64,000 nucleotides of DNA from Rhodococcus spongiicola (lineage in GTDB: Bacteria > Actinomycetota > Actinomycetes > Mycobacteriales > Mycobacteriaceae). Both the position numbers and the translations under genes were made by a program. The notes under the pieces were generated by a model. That model was not told the origin of the DNA. It worked only from the letters and a program-made list of their open reading frames with translations, and did no database searches. Position 1 is the first letter of the stretch. Each line of letters starts with the position of its first letter. Location of the stretch: positions 248,001-312,000 of the forward strand of contig NZ_RKLN01000001.1 in the NCBI RefSeq assembly GCF_004011835.1, given 5' to 3'. This document shows, piece after piece, positions 21,976 to 62,856 of this stretch.

Positions 21976-22024
21976 TCAGTCACGCCTGCCAGTATCGCCG
22001 ATTCAACCCCGCGGCAACACTGAC

Positions 22025-22190
22025 GGCACGTCAGAGCAATGCCGACGGCACGTCAGAGCAATGCGGCCGGCACGTCAGAGCTATGCGGCCGGCACGTCAG
22101 AGCTATGCGGCCGGCACGTCAGAGCTATGCGGCCGGCACGTCAGAGCAATGCGGCCGGCACGTCAGAGCAATACCGATGGCATGTCAGCG
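22025..22190. repeat. 22-bp tandem repeat array (VNTR-like) between rseA and htrA
   Basis: Seven full contiguous units: 22025-22046, 22047-22068, 22069-22090, 22091-22112, 22113-22134, 22135-22156 and 22157-22178, plus a decayed eighth from 22179. Unit pattern: GGCACGTCAGAGCWATGCGGCC, with substitutions concentrated at both ends of the array. Units abut without spacers. The eighth copy contains the rseA stop codon. The array lies in the htrA 5' leader on the transcribed (minus) strand. Function unknown; copy number probably varies by strain. Confidence 0.95.
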
Positions 22191-25443: not shown

Positions 25444-26616
25444 GTGCGGGTCGCAATGATGACGAAGGAATATCCACCCGAGATCTACGGCGGTGCGGGT
25501 GTCCACGTCACTGAGTTGGTCACGCACCTGCGCAGCCTGTGCGAGGTAGACGTGCACTGCATGGGCGCGCCGCGCGATAGCGCCATCGTCCACGGTCCCG
25601 ACCCCGCGCTGACCGGCGCCAATCCGGCTCTCCTCACGCTCTCGGCGGGGCTGCGGATGGCCCACGCCACGGCCGAGGCGGACGTGGCGCACTCGCACAC
25701 GTGGTACACGGGGCTCGCAGGCCACCTGGCTGCCCAACTGCACGACATCCCACACGTCGTGACCGCGCACTCCCTCGAGCCGCGGCGCCCGTGGAAGGCC
25801 GACCAGCTCGGAGGCGGCTACCGCGTCTCGTCGTGGTCGGAGCGCAACGCAATGGAGCACGCTGACGCCGTCATCGCCGTGAGCGAGGGCATGAAGGCCG
25901 ACGTCCTGTCCACGTACCCGGCGATCGATCCCACACGAGTCCATGTGGTACACAACGGGATCGACTCCGCCGCATGGTATCCCGGTCCACCAGCACCCGA
26001 CACTCGATCGCTGTTGGCGTCGAACAGCGTCGACCCGGACCGCCCGATCGTCGCGTTCGTCGGCCGGATCACCCGTCAGAAGGGGCTCAGCCACCTCGTC
26101 GCCGCGGCCCACGAGTTCGACCCCTCGATCCAACTGGTGTTGTGCGCGGGCGCGCCGGACACCCCGGAACTCGCGGCCGAGACGGAGGCTGCCGTCTCAC
26201 AACTCGCGGCCCGACGCGATGGTGTCTTCTGGATCCGCGACATGCTCCCCACCGAGAGGATTCGCGAAGTCCTTTCCGCAGCAACCGTATTCGTATGCCC
26301 ATCGGTGTACGAACCGTTAGGGATCGTCAATCTCGAGGCCATGGCGTGCGAGACGGCGGTCGTTGCGTCCGACGTCGGCGGTATCCCGGAGGTGGTGCAG
26401 GACGGCGCCACCGGCCGGTTGGTCCACTACAACTCGTACGAGACGGAAGCCTTCGAAAGCGAACTGGCGGCGGCCGTGAACGAGGTGGCCACCGACTCCG
26501 GCCGAGCGGCGGCAATGGGCCGCGCAGGACGTCTACGCGCCACGGCAGAGTTCTCGTGGTCTCGGATCGCCCGACAGACCCTCGACGTGTACGCCGACGT
26601 GCTCGGTCGACGGTGA
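25444..26616 (+). CDS. glgM: GT4 glycosyltransferase, maltose-1-phosphate synthase type (GlgM/GlgA)
   Basis: 390-residue GT-B fold enzyme. Substrate motif KEYPPEIYGGAGVH at the N-terminus, VTAHSLEP, linker, VGRITRQKGLSHL, and the donor-site signature VYEPLGIVNLEAMAC with the E-x7-E catalytic pattern. In mycobacteria the equivalent (Rv1212c) condenses ADP-glucose and glucose-1-phosphate to maltose-1-phosphate, feeding GlgE. Divergently paired with glgC that makes its donor. Older annotations call it glycogen synthase GlgA. Followed by a hairpin array that may end its transcript. Confidence 0.93.
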   Translation: MRVAMMTKEYPPEIYGGAGVHVTELVTHLRSLCEVDVHCMGAPRDSAIVHGPDPALTGANPALLTLSAGLRMAHATAEADVAHSHTWYTGLAGHLAAQLHDIPHVVTAHSLEPRRPWKADQLGGGYRVSSWSERNAMEHADAVIAVSEGMKADVLSTYPAIDPTRVHVVHNGIDSAAWYPGPPAPDTRSLLASNSVDPDRPIVAFVGRITRQKGLSHLVAAAHEFDPSIQLVLCAGAPDTPELAAETEAAVSQLAARRDGVFWIRDMLPTERIREVLSAATVFVCPSVYEPLGIVNLEAMACETAVVASDVGGIPEVVQDGATGRLVHYNSYETEAFESELAAAVNEVATDSGRAAAMGRAGRLRATAEFSWSRIARQTLDVYADVLGRR

Positions 26617-26619
26617 CAG

Positions 26620-26723
26620 TTGGTCGGCTCGGCCGACGGGAACAATCGGTCGGCTCGGCCGACGGGAACAATTGGTCGGCTCGGCCGACGGGAACAATCG
26701 GTCGGCTCGGCCGACGGTACGAT
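26620..26723. repeat. Four tandem 26-bp units, each with a GC hairpin
   Basis: Units at 26620-26645, 26646-26671, 26672-26697 and 26698-26723 (last one degenerate at its 3' end). Each has GTCGGC-TCG-GCCGAC, a 6-bp stem with a 3-base loop, followed by GGGAACAA in the first three. They sit between the convergent glgM and rRNA methyltransferase genes and may act as serial terminators, mRNA end protectors or a protein-binding array. Confidence 0.92.
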
Positions 26724-56718: not shown

Positions 56719-57009
56719 ATGGCCGAGCTGCTGTCCGACACCGACATCGATACGGCACTCACGGGTTTGCCGAGCTGGCGCCGCGACGGCGCCGCGCTGG
56801 TCCGGACCGTCGAATCATCGAGCTTCCCGGCGGCGATAACGCTGGTTGACCGGATCGCGGAAGCGGCTGAGTCCATGAATCACCACCCGGACATCGATAT
56901 CCGCTGGCGCAAGGTGACCTACACGTTGTCGACGCATTCCGCCGGTGGCATCACGAAATCGGATCTGGAGTTGGCTCGCCGGATCGACGAGCTGGCGGCG
57001 TCAGCGTGA
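56719..57009 (+). CDS. 4a-hydroxytetrahydrobiopterin (pterin-4a-carbinolamine) dehydratase
   Basis: 96-residue PCD/DCoH fold. Catalytic motif SMNHHPDIDIRWRKVTYTL and THSAGGIT. Regenerates pterin cofactor in the phenylalanine hydroxylase cycle; in bacteria without that system it may act on other pterins or moco intermediates. Its last 59 bases overlap the 3' end of pimE on the opposite strand. Matches Rv1159A in order. Confidence 0.93.
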   Translation: MAELLSDTDIDTALTGLPSWRRDGAALVRTVESSSFPAAITLVDRIAEAAESMNHHPDIDIRWRKVTYTLSTHSAGGITKSDLELARRIDELAASA

Positions 57010-58243
57010 TGCGGTACCTGCGGCCCGCGTAGGCGACCCACGCGAAGACGACAAGAACGCCGACCACATTGACCGCTGCGGCCCACGCGAGCGCGCCCGG
57101 GCGTGAGATCGAGTCGTCCTCGAGCTGCTTGAGAACCCACGGCACACCGATGACGGTGACCGCGAGCCAGCTCGCCGCGACGATGCGCGTGCCGAGCAGC
57201 CGTCCGTACGGTCCGTACACGAGCCAGATCAGCATCGGTAGCACCCACACCCAGTGGTGCACCCACGAGATCGGCGATACCAGCAGCCCGAAGAGCTGCA
57301 CGAGCACCAGCGTGCCCAGCCGGTCATCGCGGTCGAGTGCACGCCACGCCAGGAAGCCCAGGGCGGCGGCGACCACGACAGCCGCGATCCACACGACCCC
57401 GGAACCGACGTCGTGACCGGCGAGGCGACTGAGCGCACCGCGCAGCGACTGGTTCCACGCCGACCCGACGGGTCCGATCCGGTCGGCGTCCCCGAACTTG
57501 GACGTGAAGTAGTCGCGAGCTTGGCCGTCGATCACGAGGTAGCTCAGGCCGACGGTGCCCGCGAATGCCACGCCCGAGAAGATCGCCGCGCGCCAGCGTC
57601 GTTGCGCGAGGAAGTACAACCCGGTGATCGCCGGCGTGAGCTTGACGCCGGCGAGGGCGCCGACAATCCCGCCGGACACCCACCACCTGGTGCTGCGAAC
57701 CGCGAGCATCGCCCCGAGCACCAGGAACACGTTCACCTGGCCGTAGTCGAGCGTCGTGCGCACGGGTTCGCTCCACACGCCGAGCGCGGTCCACAGCATC
57801 GCGACATTTCGCCAGCGAGGTTCACGTGCGGTTTCGCCGATCAGCAGTTCGAGGCTGATCCGGATCACCCAGAAGAGGGCCACGACGGTGAACACCTGCC
57901 AGCAGAGGCCGACCAGCCCGAACGGCAGGTAGTGCAGCGGCAGGAACACCAACGCCGCGAATGGCGGATAGGTGAACGGGAGCGGGAAGTCGGGCGTCTC
58001 CTCCGAGTAGGTGAATGCGTACAGGTCACCGTGAAGCAGGGCAGCCGATCCGTCGACGTAGACGTGGAGATCGACGAAGTTGGTGCCGTTGGGCGTGAGG
58101 ATCGTCCACAACAGCCTGGCCAACACCGACAAGGCAAGTACCAGCGGCGCCCACCGGAGGAGCCGGTGGAACACCGTGCGCGCCCGGTCGGCGCGTGAAA
58201 GCCGTGAAAGCACTGACACTGGCTGGCGTTCTCCCGTGGACAT
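56951..58243 (-). CDS. pimE: Polyprenol-phosphate-mannose-dependent alpha-(1,2) mannosyltransferase PimE
   Basis: 430 residues, GT87/GT-C membrane glycosyltransferase with about ten helices. The extracytoplasmic N-terminal loop has NFVDLHVYVDG with Asp58, the same number as the essential Asp reported in the mycobacterial enzyme. Adds the fifth mannose (alpha-1,2) of polar PIMs from polyprenyl-phosphate mannose. Conserved with mutT2 and the pterin dehydratase in mycobacteria. The C-terminus is Pro/Arg rich and antisense to the dehydratase end. Confidence 0.92.
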   Translation of the reverse strand: MSTGERQPVSVLSRLSRADRARTVFHRLLRWAPLVLALSVLARLLWTILTPNGTNFVDLHVYVDGSAALLHGDLYAFTYSEETPDFPLPFTYPPFAALVFLPLHYLPFGLVGLCWQVFTVVALFWVIRISLELLIGETAREPRWRNVAMLWTALGVWSEPVRTTLDYGQVNVFLVLGAMLAVRSTRWWVSGGIVGALAGVKLTPAITGLYFLAQRRWRAAIFSGVAFAGTVGLSYLVIDGQARDYFTSKFGDADRIGPVGSAWNQSLRGALSRLAGHDVGSGVVWIAAVVVAAALGFLAWRALDRDDRLGTLVLVQLFGLLVSPISWVHHWVWVLPMLIWLVYGPYGRLLGTRIVAASWLAVTVIGVPWVLKQLEDDSISRPGALAWAAAVNVVGVLVVFAWVAYAGRRYRITLTPPARRSGEPTPDPIS

Positions 58244-58584
58244 GTGGCTGGACGCACCCAGTGCGGCGCAGCGGCGGGAAGGACCAGGTGTCGTGTCAGC
58301 CTAACCCGACCCGAACAACCGGTCGAAATTCTCGCCTCATGCGTAACAGTTGCATCAAGGATCATATTTTCCCCATACGTAACGGGATATGGTCACCAGG
58401 CGATGGCAGTCACGTCACAGGTTGCATAGACTCCTCGCGACGCTGGTCACGATCGAACCGGACGTATGAGTCTGTACACACCGGGGGTCGATCCCTAAAG
58501 TGACCCGCGACCGAGTAGGACGCAGAGCCCGCTCTGTGGGCCGATGCTGCACCGCAGTTGTCTGACGACAAGGATGGGGAAACC
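58244..58584. other. Intergenic region before secreted protein gene
   Basis: 341 bp, more AT-rich around 58350-58390 than its surroundings. It contains two CGTAAC hexamers (near 58345 and 58378) and TAGACT (near 58427), a possible -10. No supported gene. Confidence 0.35.
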
Positions 58585-59331
58585 GTGATTCGTAACCGAG
58601 GAATGCGACGAGCGATTACTGCCTGCGCAGTTGCGGCCGCCGCGGCACTCGCTGTCCCGGCCAACGCGACCGCGCAGCCCACACCCCCCGAGGGCGTCTC
58701 GATCGACACGCTGGCAGCCCTTGCGCCCGCCATCGTGGGGATCGTGGCCGACGCGCCGGATCTCAACGACGCCGATGCCAAGGCCGACATTCTGGCTCAG
58801 GCCCGCGACCTACTCGAGGGCGCGAACCTGCCGCCGGAGCTGGAGTCCACTCTCGAGAGCGTCATCACCTTCCTCGACGGCAGTGGCGGAGGCGGACCGG
58901 AGATACCCCAGAACGGCCCGGTGATCGCTCAGTTCCTGTACCCGACCGTCGGCCAGGGTTGCATCGCCCCGTCGGGCGACTCGGTCGGAACGGCGCTCGC
59001 GGTTCCGGGGCCGGCGCAGCTGCCTCCGCCCGGGCCGGGCGCAGGTCAGGCCGGATTCGTTTTCACGGCGCTCGGCACGGAGCGGGCCGCTGAGAATCAG
59101 GGCATGACGGTGACGTGGATCAACATCGACAACGGACGTCGCGCGACGCAGGACCTCACTACAGAGGCGCGAATCAATCCGGACGGCCCCGCCACGCTCT
59201 CGGCGATCGCCGATACCGGTCCGGGACGCGTCCTTGCCACCATCTCGGGTTCGCTGACCACCGAACCCGAGGGTTCTGCGCCGATCACGTGCAGTTTCCT
59301 GCCGACCGTCGGAATGTTCACGGTCGCATAG
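58585..59331 (+). CDS. Secreted protein of unknown function
   Basis: 248 residues. GTG start with AGGATGGGG upstream. Signal peptide: basic MIRNRGMRR, hydrophobic AITACAVAAAAALAVPANATA. The mature part has an acidic helical segment (about 40-100), then a beta-rich domain with two lone cysteines (GQGCIAP and PITCSFLPTVG) likely forming a disulfide. No lipobox. Ends with a strong terminator. It occupies the place where M. tuberculosis has the secreted Rv1157c/Rv1158c proteins downstream of pimE, but similarity is not established. Confidence 0.8.
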   Translation: MIRNRGMRRAITACAVAAAAALAVPANATAQPTPPEGVSIDTLAALAPAIVGIVADAPDLNDADAKADILAQARDLLEGANLPPELESTLESVITFLDGSGGGGPEIPQNGPVIAQFLYPTVGQGCIAPSGDSVGTALAVPGPAQLPPPGPGAGQAGFVFTALGTERAAENQGMTVTWINIDNGRRATQDLTTEARINPDGPATLSAIADTGPGRVLATISGSLTTEPEGSAPITCSFLPTVGMFTVA

Positions 59332-59345
59332 AACACGCGTTTCAC

Positions 59346-59385
59346 AACGAAGGTCCCGCCGAGTATTCGGCGGGACCTTCGTTTT
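59346..59385 (+). terminator. Intrinsic terminator of secreted protein gene
   Basis: 17-bp perfect stem (59346-59362 with 59367-59383), loop GTAT, ending in TTTT: a textbook rho-independent terminator 14 bp after the stop. Confidence 0.93.
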
Positions 59386-59433
59386 AGCCGCTCTCCGCTG
59401 TTGCGGACCCATCGGTTCGTGGTAAACCGAAGA

Positions 59434-59772
59434 ATGGCCGACAGCATGCAGTCGATCCGTTCCTGGAAGTCGCGGCGATCGATCTTGTCGATCCGTTCCG
59501 AGGGCTCGATCCTGTCCATAGGGAGCGTCGGCTCGATCCTGTCGATCGGCAGCATCGGCTCGATCCTGTCCATCGGGTCGATCGGCTCGGCCGCGTCCGC
59601 GTTGTCGTCGCTGTCGTTCGTGAGTGTCGGATCAGCGATGTCGGGGCTGTCGAGATGGTCGCTGATGTCCTGGCGCGGGGTGGGACGCTCCCCCGAGCAG
59701 CGTCCGACGCTCGTGGTCGTGCCCGACGAACCGGACCTCGCCGTGTCGACCACTCGACACGTGCAGTCCTAG
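59434..59772 (+). CDS. Ser-every-third-residue repeat protein, unknown
   Basis: 112 residues. From Ser4 to Ser79 every third residue is serine, 26 consecutive x-x-S triplets (for example MQS IRS WKS; ILS IGS VGS; GLS RWS LMS), often with Ile, Leu, Gly or Val between. Three units of 9 residues (GSILSIGSV type; 27 bp) are duplicated in DNA, but the rest are not DNA repeats, and serines use TCG, TCC, TCA, AGC and AGT codons, so the spacing is kept at protein level. After Trp80-Arg-Gly the chain becomes ordinary and charged. Likely a rigid coil such as a triangular beta-solenoid. ATG 59434; ribosome site weak. Confidence 0.6.
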   Translation: MADSMQSIRSWKSRRSILSIRSEGSILSIGSVGSILSIGSIGSILSIGSIGSAASALSSLSFVSVGSAMSGLSRWSLMSWRGVGRSPEQRPTLVVVPDEPDLAVSTTRHVQS

Positions 59773-59850
59773 AGCCCAGAATCTCGTCGGGCAGTCCCGG
59801 ATAGCTGGCCCCGCGAGACCCCGCCAAGTCTGGCCCTGCAAAATCTGGCC

Positions 59851-60130: not shown

Positions 60131-60370
60131 ATGAGCAAAGAGAAGTGGTGGGTGCTGGGATCCGACTCCGGTTGGTCTCTCGAAGAGCGTCCGAACGGCG
60201 ATCACGTCGTCATCAGCCAGTCCACGGCTGAGGAACATGTGCTCGCCGGGTACCAATGGATGCACGTCAAGCACGACGACGCGGAGACCGGAACCCACGC
60301 TCACGCCCTCAAAGTACTGGGCGAGGGACCACCGCCATTTGGGAAGTGGACGGAATTTCACGGAACGTGA
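60131..60370 (+). CDS. Small conserved-looking protein, unknown
   Basis: 79 residues: MSKEKWWVLGSDSGWSLEERP, then HVVISQSTAEEHVL and AGYQWMHVKHDDAETGTHAH; the end is KWTEFHGT. Rich in Trp and His. ATG with AGGGAG eight bases upstream; a GTG at 60104 would add nine residues. TAGCGT at 60086-60091 could be the -10. No domain recognised. It is convergent with the membrane protein gene across a terminator. Confidence 0.6.
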   Translation: MSKEKWWVLGSDSGWSLEERPNGDHVVISQSTAEEHVLAGYQWMHVKHDDAETGTHAHALKVLGEGPPPFGKWTEFHGT

Positions 60371-60999: not shown

Positions 61000-61734
61000 C
61001 TACGACAGGAAGTACCGGTTGCGAGTCGACCACTGCCCGTACTCGGGCTTGAGGATCGAATTGAGGTCGACGCCGATCCCCCCGATCTTCCGCTTGTCGA
61101 TCTCGAATTGGTGCAGGTGCGCGGCGGGATGCACGTAGTCTGCCGGCGTTCCCCAGTTGTGCTGCCAGAACCACTCGCCCACGCCCGCGCGCAGACACCG
61201 ATCGATCGTGGGCGAGTTCGCGTAGACACCCACGTTCGAGTGCCCCATGACGCTCCCCCAACCGCGTAGATACGGAGCGATCAGGTTGTCGAACTCCCAT
61301 TCGGACGGGTTGTCGTCGATGGACGCGTAGATGGGGCAGTTCTCGGGTCCCCCGGCGGCGCGATGAAGTTCGAGGCCGCGGTTGGCATGACGCACGCCGG
61401 CGTCGTAGCCGCCGCGCCAGTCCGCCGTTTCCCCCTTACCGAACTGGTAGCAGGAAACGATCTGCAGCCCGAAGGCTGCCATCGCGGCCGCCTCCCCGAG
61501 CAGCATCGGCTTACCGAGCATCCATTCTGCGCCGGGGCGCCGGTCGGAGACGTAGCGGATGGCGCCGACGTGTCCGGCCAAGAGGATCCCGAGTGGGGAC
61601 GGCACACCCGCCGAGTAGTCGACCAGCGTCGCCGGTCCTGCGCTCGCAGTCGTCGGGCCCGCCGCTGCGGCCAGGCCGGCGGCTGCGGAACCAACCGCCG
61701 CGATCTTGAACAGTCCCCGCCTGGAAACCCGCAT
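61000..61734 (-). CDS. Tat-exported DUF1906 (glycoside-hydrolase-like) protein
   Basis: 244 residues. Twin-arginine signal SRRGLFKIAA followed by an Ala-rich helix and cleavage near TASAG. The mature domain is a DUF1906 TIM-barrel: VDYSAGVPSP, IRYVSDRRPG, YQFGKGETADWRGGYDAGVRHA, PIYASIDDNP, VGVYANSPTIDRCL, WFWQHNWG, IDKRKIGGIGVDLN. Relatives resemble lysozyme-like GH25/GH18 hydrolases acting on cell walls. ATG start with GCGAGG upstream. Export would use the TatB encoded here. Confidence 0.88.
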   Translation of the reverse strand: MRVSRRGLFKIAAVGSAAAGLAAAAGPTTASAGPATLVDYSAGVPSPLGILLAGHVGAIRYVSDRRPGAEWMLGKPMLLGEAAAMAAFGLQIVSCYQFGKGETADWRGGYDAGVRHANRGLELHRAAGGPENCPIYASIDDNPSEWEFDNLIAPYLRGWGSVMGHSNVGVYANSPTIDRCLRAGVGEWFWQHNWGTPADYVHPAAHLHQFEIDKRKIGGIGVDLNSILKPEYGQWSTRNRYFLS

Positions 61735-61853
61735 CACAAACCTCGCATAACCGGCGGGCATCCGGCAGTTCCGTAACTGGCCCTCGCAGGTTCACTCCGC
61801 CTTGCCGCTGTTGGATTCGAGGCCTATTTCACCACAGTCACTCAGGTACCGTC

Positions 61854-61884: not shown

Positions 61885-62856
61885 TCAGTCGGTTTCGAGG
61901 CCGGCGAAGAAGTCGGTCTGCACTGCGACGTCCTCGACCACGCGCGTCGTCGTCCGCACCCCGAGCGCATGCTCCTTGAGCAGGTCGCACAGCCGGTCGC
62001 CGTCGATGAGGTCGACAGGCGGTGCACCATCGCGACTGGACTCGGCCCGCGCCTCGCTCGTGAAGGTCCCCGTCGTGATCAGCAGGCCCTTCTCGCCGCG
62101 ACCGGCCATTGCGCCCCGCAGGTCGCGAACAGCGCCGACACCGACGCTGCCACTGACCCGCTTGCACTGGAAGGCGACGGGAAAGCTCAACAACGAGATC
62201 TGGCACATGCCGATGCCGTCGACGCCACCGTCGCCCCCGCGAGCGGTGATGGTCGCGCTCGAGAAACCGGCCTCACGCAACAAGCGCTGGATGAGCCTTT
62301 CGAAGGCGGTCGACGACATCCGCAGGATCTCCTCGAGCAGTACTGCCCTCCACTCGATCGTCTCGTCGGATTCGCCGTACGCCGTGTCCGATTCCGCCTC
62401 CGCGGCCGCATCCGACGGCGGAAGATCCTGCTCGTCGGGAACGCCGGCCTTGCGGTTGAGGCGTTGCCGGCGCTTGTCGGCGGTGAAGGCCGCGAGCAGC
62501 GGACGGATGTCGCTTTCGGTCACCTCGCGTCCACGTTTGGTCACGCTCCACACCGCTCGACGACTGTTGGCAAGCAGGCCCATTCCCTTGAGATACGTAC
62601 GCGCCCAAGCCAGTCGGTACTCGACCTCTGTCCCCGGCCCCGCTCCGTGCAGAATCCCCTGCACCTCGGGTGACCAACCCTCACGTTCCACGACCGCGCC
62701 GTCGAGTTCGTTGTTCGACGCCGACCCACCGAGCGCGATGAGCGCCTGCAAGGTGGGCCAAAGTAAATCGGTGTACGGGGGGAGCTGGGCGATCAGATCC
62801 GCCTGACCGGCGACGTCCCCACCCTGTCGCTCCTGCACCTGCACACCCGCTCCCAT
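61885..62856 (-). CDS. Mrr-type restriction endonuclease
   Basis: 323 residues. The N-terminal winged-helix region (about 20-110, with LTPTLQ-like WPTLQALIALGG and YLKGMGLLANSRRAVWSVT) is of the Mrr_N type. The C-terminal PD-(D/E)XK nuclease domain has ERLIQRLLREAGF, GGDGGVDGIG (Asp) and QCK with Gln230 and Lys232. Mrr enzymes cut methylated foreign DNA (type IV). No methyltransferase or specificity subunit is nearby, which fits type IV. ATG 62856; no strong ribosome site. Confidence 0.9.
   Translation of the reverse strand: MGAGVQVQERQGGDVAGQADLIAQLPPYTDLLWPTLQALIALGGSASNNELDGAVVEREGWSPEVQGILHGAGPGTEVEYRLAWARTYLKGMGLLANSRRAVWSVTKRGREVTESDIRPLLAAFTADKRRQRLNRKAGVPDEQDLPPSDAAAEAESDTAYGESDETIEWRAVLLEEILRMSSTAFERLIQRLLREAGFSSATITARGGDGGVDGIGMCQISLLSFPVAFQCKRVSGSVGVGAVRDLRGAMAGRGEKGLLITTGTFTSEARAESSRDGAPPVDLIDGDRLCDLLKEHALGVRTTTRVVEDVAVQTDFFAGLETD

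Follow-up and report, generated by a model that had tools for sequence, protein, structure and literature searches.

Solenoid proteins with short units include the hexapeptide left-handed beta-helix, the pentapeptide repeats and the RTX repeats, which are built from six, five and nine residues per unit, respectively, and place small residues at the corners or inside. Tight beta-helices have also been described for beetle antifreeze proteins, in models based on the TmAFP crystal structure in which C2, S5, C8 and A11 point inward (PMC8038014). Bactofilins, in turn, are described as polymer-forming proteins that are mostly bound to the membrane via a short N-terminal peptide (PMC12448750).

The locus analysed here lies in a 64,000-nucleotide stretch of Rhodococcus spongiicola DNA (hereafter, the window) and encodes a small protein with serine at every third residue of a long array. 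Judged from comparison with its relatives, it is a real gene and belongs to a so far unnamed actinobacterial protein family.

The serine-triplet gene and its conservation

The plus-strand open reading frame (ORF) at window 59434-59772 encodes 112 amino acids followed by a stop. Residues 4, 7 and so on up to 79 are all serine, and the resulting 26 consecutive x-x-S triplets use five Ser codons (TCG 15, TCC 6, AGC 3, AGT 1, and TCA 1). The gene has the following parts:

59434..59772, plus strand: serine-triplet repeat protein, 112 aa and stop (translation, relatives, dN/dS)
59443..59670, plus strand: x-x-S array from Ser4 to Ser79, 26 triplets (translation, alignment)
59503..59589, plus strand: 27-bp tandem DNA repeat within the array, 3.2 copies (Tandem Repeats Finder)
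59671..59769, plus strand: C-terminal tail, residues 80-112, 33 aa (Nocardiaceae alignment)

The original prediction, made from the letters of this DNA, had already read the array as unbroken from Ser4 to Ser79 and had seen only three duplicated 27-bp units in it. Translation agrees with the former and Tandem Repeats Finder with the latter; as the repeat covers only part of the array, DNA duplication accounts for it only in part. Elsewhere in the window, tandem repeats of 22 bp (22024-22172; 6.8 copies, 96% match) and 26 bp (26601-26717; 4.5 copies, 92% match) are present.

A scan of contigs yielded at least 109 confirmed relatives, and the best 80, which were kept, come from Rhodococcus, Prescottella, Nocardia, Aldersonia, Antrihabitans, and Skermania. 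R. jostii and R. erythropolis are represented among them (loci L008 and L055). Within the family to which the genome belongs, matches at 1e-6, one per genome, occur in 51 of 151 genomes, representing 9 of 31 genera, and all 10 genomes of its own genus among the matches listed carry the gene. Matches in one large genus of the same family (1e-7 to 1e-10) were rejected: two of the three loci inspected had no array, and the third was a different Val/Ser low-complexity frame. Farther away, 33 of 200 genomes in the order and 24 of 296 in the phylum gave matches, and a broader profile matched 102 of 394 genomes (45 of 138 genera) in the class and 79 of 397 genomes (27 of 86 genera) in the order; these tallies are upper bounds, because the low-scoring matches include unrelated low-complexity frames. 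From 107 wider loci that were analysed, nine were dropped as low-complexity or off-pattern, although one of them (L134) may be a true relative. The other 98 were reduced to 67 by removal of redundancy, and six of Nocardiaceae type were set aside, which left 61 wider arrays, a few of which (e.g., L146) may be chance low-complexity frames. These arrays comprise 13-29 triplets, and 46 of the 61 have 22-26.

A phage origin was considered and rejected, as no relative was present among 32 pattern matches in viral contigs. A plasmid origin was likewise rejected: the search, which masks low-complexity sequence, gave a single plasmid record, from Nocardia farcinica. This 2.66-Mb record, labelled Nocardia farcinica plasmid 2 (NZ_LN868939.1, locus L176 at 1784862-1791999), may be chromosomal, since it matches the tail of the core-locus gene.

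Conservation was assessed in an alignment of 53 Nocardiaceae orthologues. From position 16 to position 79, 19 of the 22 Ser columns are invariant among the rows that have a residue there, and the remaining three contain Ser in 52, 52, and 49 of the 53 rows. Of 27 Ser columns, 12 mix TCN with AGY codons. The dN/dS, here the ratio of mean pairwise dN to mean pairwise dS, is 0.07 in the Ser columns, 0.20 in the other columns of the array, 0.37 in the tail, and 0.50 at the N-terminus. The spacing between S25 and S76 is 51 residues in 46 rows, 42 in six, and 57 in one; length thus changes by multiples of three residues, and the three-residue register between these positions is unbroken in all 53 rows. 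It had been predicted that codons drift while serine is kept, and a comparison of synonymous and non-synonymous change at the Ser codons of relatives had been suggested, together with a look for broken frames or a lost period; the mixed codon classes, the low dN/dS and the intact register all agree with that prediction.

An open antisense frame had been noted as well, and the locus does contain antisense ORFs of 218 aa (59097-59753) and 147 aa (59384-59827). Frame openness says little here: the sense frames are stop-free in 53, 13, and 38 of the 53 rows and the antisense frames in 15, 9, and 18; in 34 rows, one or more antisense frames are open. The assignment of the strand rests, therefore, on codon-level conservation and on the motif upstream of the gene (see below). 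The local 27-bp repeat and the openness of the antisense strand, both at the locus and among relatives, could be taken to mean that there is no gene at all, i.e., that the array is low-complexity DNA or the reverse of a coding antisense frame. The probability of this is negligible in our estimation: TCN and AGY codons share Ser columns, dN/dS is lowest in exactly these columns, the upstream motif is fixed, and the most open antisense frame reaches just 18 of 53 rows. On these comparative grounds, the plus-strand ORF is a real, strongly conserved gene in which selection acts on serine at the protein level.

The C-terminal 33 residues had been regarded as ordinary, a description that does not hold. 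In Nocardiaceae, they follow a recurrent consensus, approximately L-R-V-V-P-D-E-P-D-L with a terminal H-x-Q-[ST], in which L93 and Q111 are invariant and V95, E99, and H109 are present in at least 90% of the 53 rows. In 24 of the 61 wider members, a hydrophobic segment resembling a membrane anchor follows the array (17-residue mean above 1.6). Three loci, L109-L111, have a C-terminal segment similar to V-A-[ED]-[LW]-W-L-x-W.

Genomic neighbourhood and upstream motif

The orthologues share a gene order that consists of a phhB-like gene, a GT87 mannosyltransferase gene (opposite strand), a gene of the Rv1157c family, the serine-triplet gene, and an Rv2525c-like gene (opposite strand). The window contains the following neighbours and upstream elements:

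56951..58243, minus strand: GT87 mannosyltransferase, PimE-type neighbour (profile match)
58558..59331, plus strand: Rv1157c-family protein, upstream neighbour (NF050168, 186.6 bits, cutoff 70)
59346..59383, plus strand: terminator-like element, a 17-bp hairpin with a short run of U behind it (fold -34.3 kcal/mol, z -7.69)
59419..59428, plus strand: 5' motif GTGGTAAACC (family GTGRTARACC), 5 nt before the ATG (copies compared)
61000..61761, minus strand: Rv2525c-like glycoside-hydrolase-like protein, downstream neighbour (PF08924)

The 80 relatives are nearly all syntenic. In 79 of the 80 loci the Rv1157c-like gene precedes the serine-triplet gene on its own strand, at a distance of 2.3 kb in one case; in the eightieth, the available DNA begins 84 bp before the serine-triplet gene. 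The DNA of 73 of the 80 loci includes the mannosyltransferase gene, that of 77 the phhB-like gene, and that of 75 the Rv2525c-like gene. Among 20 distant loci, no neighbour is common to all or most, and the largest cluster, of five loci, is at the array itself. The window also encodes an Mrr-type restriction endonuclease (61885-62856, minus strand; PF04471, PF14338), which has a relative in four of the 80 related loci, and a 79-aa protein (60131-60370, plus strand), which has no Pfam or NCBIfam match at 0.001 and has relatives in five.

The strong hairpin separates the serine-triplet gene from its upstream neighbour, and the gene probably has its own promoter. A consensus terminator scan of the region returned no terminator, the hairpin at 59346..59383 included, and an Rfam scan gave no match. 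The exact motif GTG[GA]TA[GA]ACC stands ahead of the start codon in 77 of the 81 copies available from the 80 loci and the genome itself, and a looser form is located 5-7 nt from the start in 79 of 81. All 80 copies counted end in C, and in the related loci no column upstream of it is conserved. One Nocardia neocaledoniensis genome (L046) has no in-frame start after the motif, which may represent an N-terminal frame change. Throughout the genome, GTGRTARACC has 14 matches, compared with 20 for its reversed control, and TGGTARACCNNNNNATG occurs once; the motif therefore does not mark other genes, and its reading as the signature of a regulon was rejected.

For Mycobacterium tuberculosis promoters, one study describes a TANNNT box centred 7-12 bp before the transcript start and a higher activity when TGN precedes it, and reports having found no -35 motif (PMC3898074). 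In the Nocardiaceae motif, TGR-TARACC occupies the place of a -10 element relative to the ATG, but it ends in C rather than T and so is not a plain match to TANNNT. We infer that the motif may be an extended -10-like element of a leaderless promoter. Of the 61 distant members, 36 have NANNNT at -12 and 10 have it at -13 (together 46 of 61), versus zero to three members at each of the other offsets from -30 to -6, and this peak makes leaderless transcription likely for the family. Loci L109-L111 of the wider family have a common GAGACT box just ahead of a GTG start.

Residue rules and candidate folds

The residue after Ser is here called x1, and the third residue of the triplet x2. The 61 non-redundant wider arrays keep Ser at 1412 of their 1446 Ser positions and have Cys (16), Ala (9), Gly (7), Asp (1), and Arg (1) at the others; in 65 Nocardiaceae proteins, the count is 1597 of 1608, with Ala six times and Gly, Asn, Leu, Pro, and Arg once each. 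Thr appears in none of these 34 and 11 substitutions. The x1 position is mostly Ile, Val, or Ala, and x2 is mostly Gly or Leu. Ile, Val, and Thr together account for 430 of 710 x1 residues in the first half of the arrays and 318 of 675 in the second, and for 6 of 675 and 22 of 710 x2 residues (1-3%). In the wider arrays, identity between non-Ser residues reaches 0.443 at lag 9 and falls to 0.388 at lag 18 and 0.280 at lag 27. A shuffled-triplet control gives 0.215 (sd 0.007-0.008), and lags 3, 6, 12, and 15 are not raised.

Over the first two tenths of the array, about 25% of x positions are polar, a share that drops to 0-1.5% in tenths 4-7 and returns to 16-23% in the last two tenths; the values at the ends may be inflated, since the ends are defined by runs of Ser. 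Trp is also concentrated there. The polar-free stretch has a median length of 48 residues (no DEKRHNQ) to 55 residues (no DEKR), with a range of 26-70. The array falls short of a membrane helix in hydrophobicity: its best 19-residue mean is 1.71, compared with 2.33 for the PimE-type protein, 2.12 for another protein, and 1.12-1.34 for soluble controls.

Our tentative proposal, which we hold with limited confidence, is that the array forms a tight triangular beta-solenoid with Ser inward, i.e., a hydrophobic rod that would sit at the membrane or assemble with itself. The coil would have about nine residues per turn, with one S-x1-x2 triplet on each edge. Ser, which is small, would point inward; x1 (Ile/Val/Ala) would be in beta conformation and face outward; and x2 (Gly/Leu) would occupy the corner in an alpha-L-like conformation, in which Leu is unusual, and Leu fills a quarter of the x2 positions here. 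With about eight coils, the rod would be some 40 Å long. Its outer surface would be hydrophobic, with Trp and polar residues at the ends, which suggests a rod lying in or against the membrane or packed side by side with its own kind; its role would accordingly be structural, either membrane-associated or self-assembling. Its location may be set by the C-terminal part, which varies between a hydrophobic segment, a basic tail, and, in Nocardiaceae, an acidic tail.

A backbone repeating every three residues would explain the strict period of three together with the differing rules at x1 and x2, whereas an alpha-helix would not. The lag-9 repetition and the position-specific preferences fit three edges of three residues, and it is chiefly because of the lag-9 signal that nine residues per turn are preferred. 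The acceptance of Cys, Ala, and Gly, but never Thr, at Ser positions disfavours an exposed hydroxyl face and fits a tight position better. Of the triangular ladder with a hydroxyl face that had been proposed for this array, the ladder therefore stands as a model, supported by lag 9 and the residue preferences, and the exposed hydroxyl face is disfavoured.

When backbone torsions were searched under ideal geometry, a (beta, beta, alpha-L) triplet gave closed helices of nine residues per turn, with 15 of 120 models free of clashes and 25 inter-coil hydrogen bonds in 36 residues in the best one. The residue that follows the alpha-L corner points inward in these models, which is the order x2-S of the protein. 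Such a triplet backbone is, in these models, sterically possible. Wider coils can be closed from the same unit as well: at 12, 15, and 18 residues per turn, inter-coil hydrogen bonds number up to 31, 26, and 18, respectively. After minimisation of the four best models the hydrogen-bond fraction was 0.63 at nine per turn versus 0.91-0.96 in the wider coils. Side-chain overlaps were 0-0.24 Å for Cys, 0-0.22 Å for Thr, and 0.21-0.48 Å for Val at nine residues per turn, and at most 0.03 Å at 12-18; as Cys and Thr overlap to about the same extent in the tight coil, the side-chain test leaves the substitution pattern unexplained. Prediction with AlphaFold, which had been suggested, was run on the single sequence and was uninformative (AlphaFold2, mean pLDDT 46.3, pTM 0.14, no strands). 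For perfect repeats, AF2 has a reported tendency to predict beta-solenoids too often (PMC11795689).

Part of this evidence would also suit a hairpin of two Ser/Gly-rich transmembrane alpha-helices packed by small residues, with basic and Trp ends in the cytoplasm. The polar-free stretch of median 48-55 residues, its flanks of polar residues and Trp, the hydrophobicity intermediate between soluble and membrane controls, and the hydrophobic segment that 24 of the 61 wider members carry behind the array are all in its favour. We nevertheless find it rather unlikely: an exact period of three drifts round an alpha-helix, neither the absence of Thr nor the x1/x2 asymmetry would be expected, and there is no polar turn in mid-array, where a hairpin would turn. 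We place a similar, low degree of belief in a low-complexity domain without a fixed fold, condensing or amyloid-like, in which the Ser period would be a sticker-spacer pattern. This would agree with the low confidence of AF2 on the single sequence and with the best profile match among solved chains, a Ser/Gly/Leu low-complexity stretch of a nuclear pore protein (E 0.011), but the near-invariant residues and triplet-exact length differences are stricter than is usual for disorder, and the middle of the array is almost devoid of polar residues besides Ser. Distinctly improbable is a single-chain transmembrane triangular beta-helix, with three axial Ser per turn, Ile/Val/Leu towards the lipid, and Trp and charged caps. 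The 48-55 polar-free residues, at nine per 4.8-Å turn, correspond to 26-29 Å, about the thickness of the bilayer core; members vary widely in this stretch (26-70 residues). The protein would then be a rod in the membrane or a narrow conduit lined with hydroxyls, an encoded counterpart of the gramicidin helix; to our knowledge, no genetically encoded counterpart of that helix has been described.

Other explanations start from the hydroxyls themselves. The R-S context at the basic N-terminus could indicate a platform for multi-site phosphorylation by Ser/Thr kinases, which is very improbable in an array whose middle is uncharged and hydrophobic and whose Ser is replaced by Cys, Ala, and Gly but never by Thr. 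We give even less credit to a protein that would bind ice or a surface through a ladder of outward hydroxyls. The hydroxyls are regularly spaced and antifreeze solenoids have a period-three core, but the ranks on the ice side of the beetle proteins are described as Thr (PMC8038014), the very residue that is absent at the Ser positions, and no signal peptide was recognised by eye. It is scarcely credible, finally, that the protein is the precursor of a ribosomally made, modified peptide of the His-Xaa-Ser kind. The NCBIfam model HxsA4 (NF038313) does match it weakly, at 17 bits, far under the cutoff of 55, but the sequence contains no His repeat, and no radical SAM model was found in six scanned neighbours (E up to 0.001).

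Comparison with known families

The original prediction knew of no characterised family of this form, and the searches bear it out. For the serine-triplet protein, Pfam returned no family at E up to 1, bactofilin included, PHROG returned no match at E up to 1, and NCBIfam no passing model, HxsA4 being its only match. A Pfam scan of the 53 orthologues at E up to 0.5 gave only ORF20A in two and TraG in one, and no bactofilin. Among solved chains, the best E values were 0.35 for the protein and 0.011 for the profile (a low-complexity match), and no solved relative was found. Nothing apparently concerned with this family was found in searches of open-licence PMC papers. No model in Pfam, PHROGs, or NCBIfam passes for the family, which matches, as an upper bound, 45 of the 138 class genera sampled. 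If the fold proposed above is true, the array would coil more tightly than the 12-residue beta-helix of the beetle proteins, and a triplet unit would join the short-unit solenoids; if the membrane reading is true, the family would reside in the membrane in a manner new for proteins. The residue rules, i.e., no Thr at Ser positions and almost no beta-branched residue at x2, make the fold model testable by point changes.

The consensus sequences of the hexapeptide, pentapeptide, and RTX repeats are unlike the serine-triplet array, and none of the three has a Pfam match in the protein or its orthologues. HxsA4 shares a triplet period with Ser but differs in its His repeat, absent here, and in the radical SAM enzymes, for which the six neighbours gave no match. 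Bactofilins are not known to have a Ser period. They resemble the serine-triplet proteins in being small and in having short membrane-binding ends, which, like the rod-forming solenoid, are only proposed for the latter; unlike them, the serine-triplet proteins have no bactofilin model among their Pfam matches. No sequence relation to beetle antifreeze protein was shown. Its 12-residue TCTxSxNCxxAx repeat is absent from the array, and identity in the wider arrays is raised at lags 9, 18, and 27, not 12. In their described structures, TmAFP and DhbAFP have a small residue at every third position (C, S, C, A) facing a narrow core (PMC8038014), as is proposed here for Ser, and they are similar in size. 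The beetle coil, however, has 12 residues, disulfides, and outer ranks of Thr, whereas the repetition here is of nine residues and the outside would be hydrophobic.
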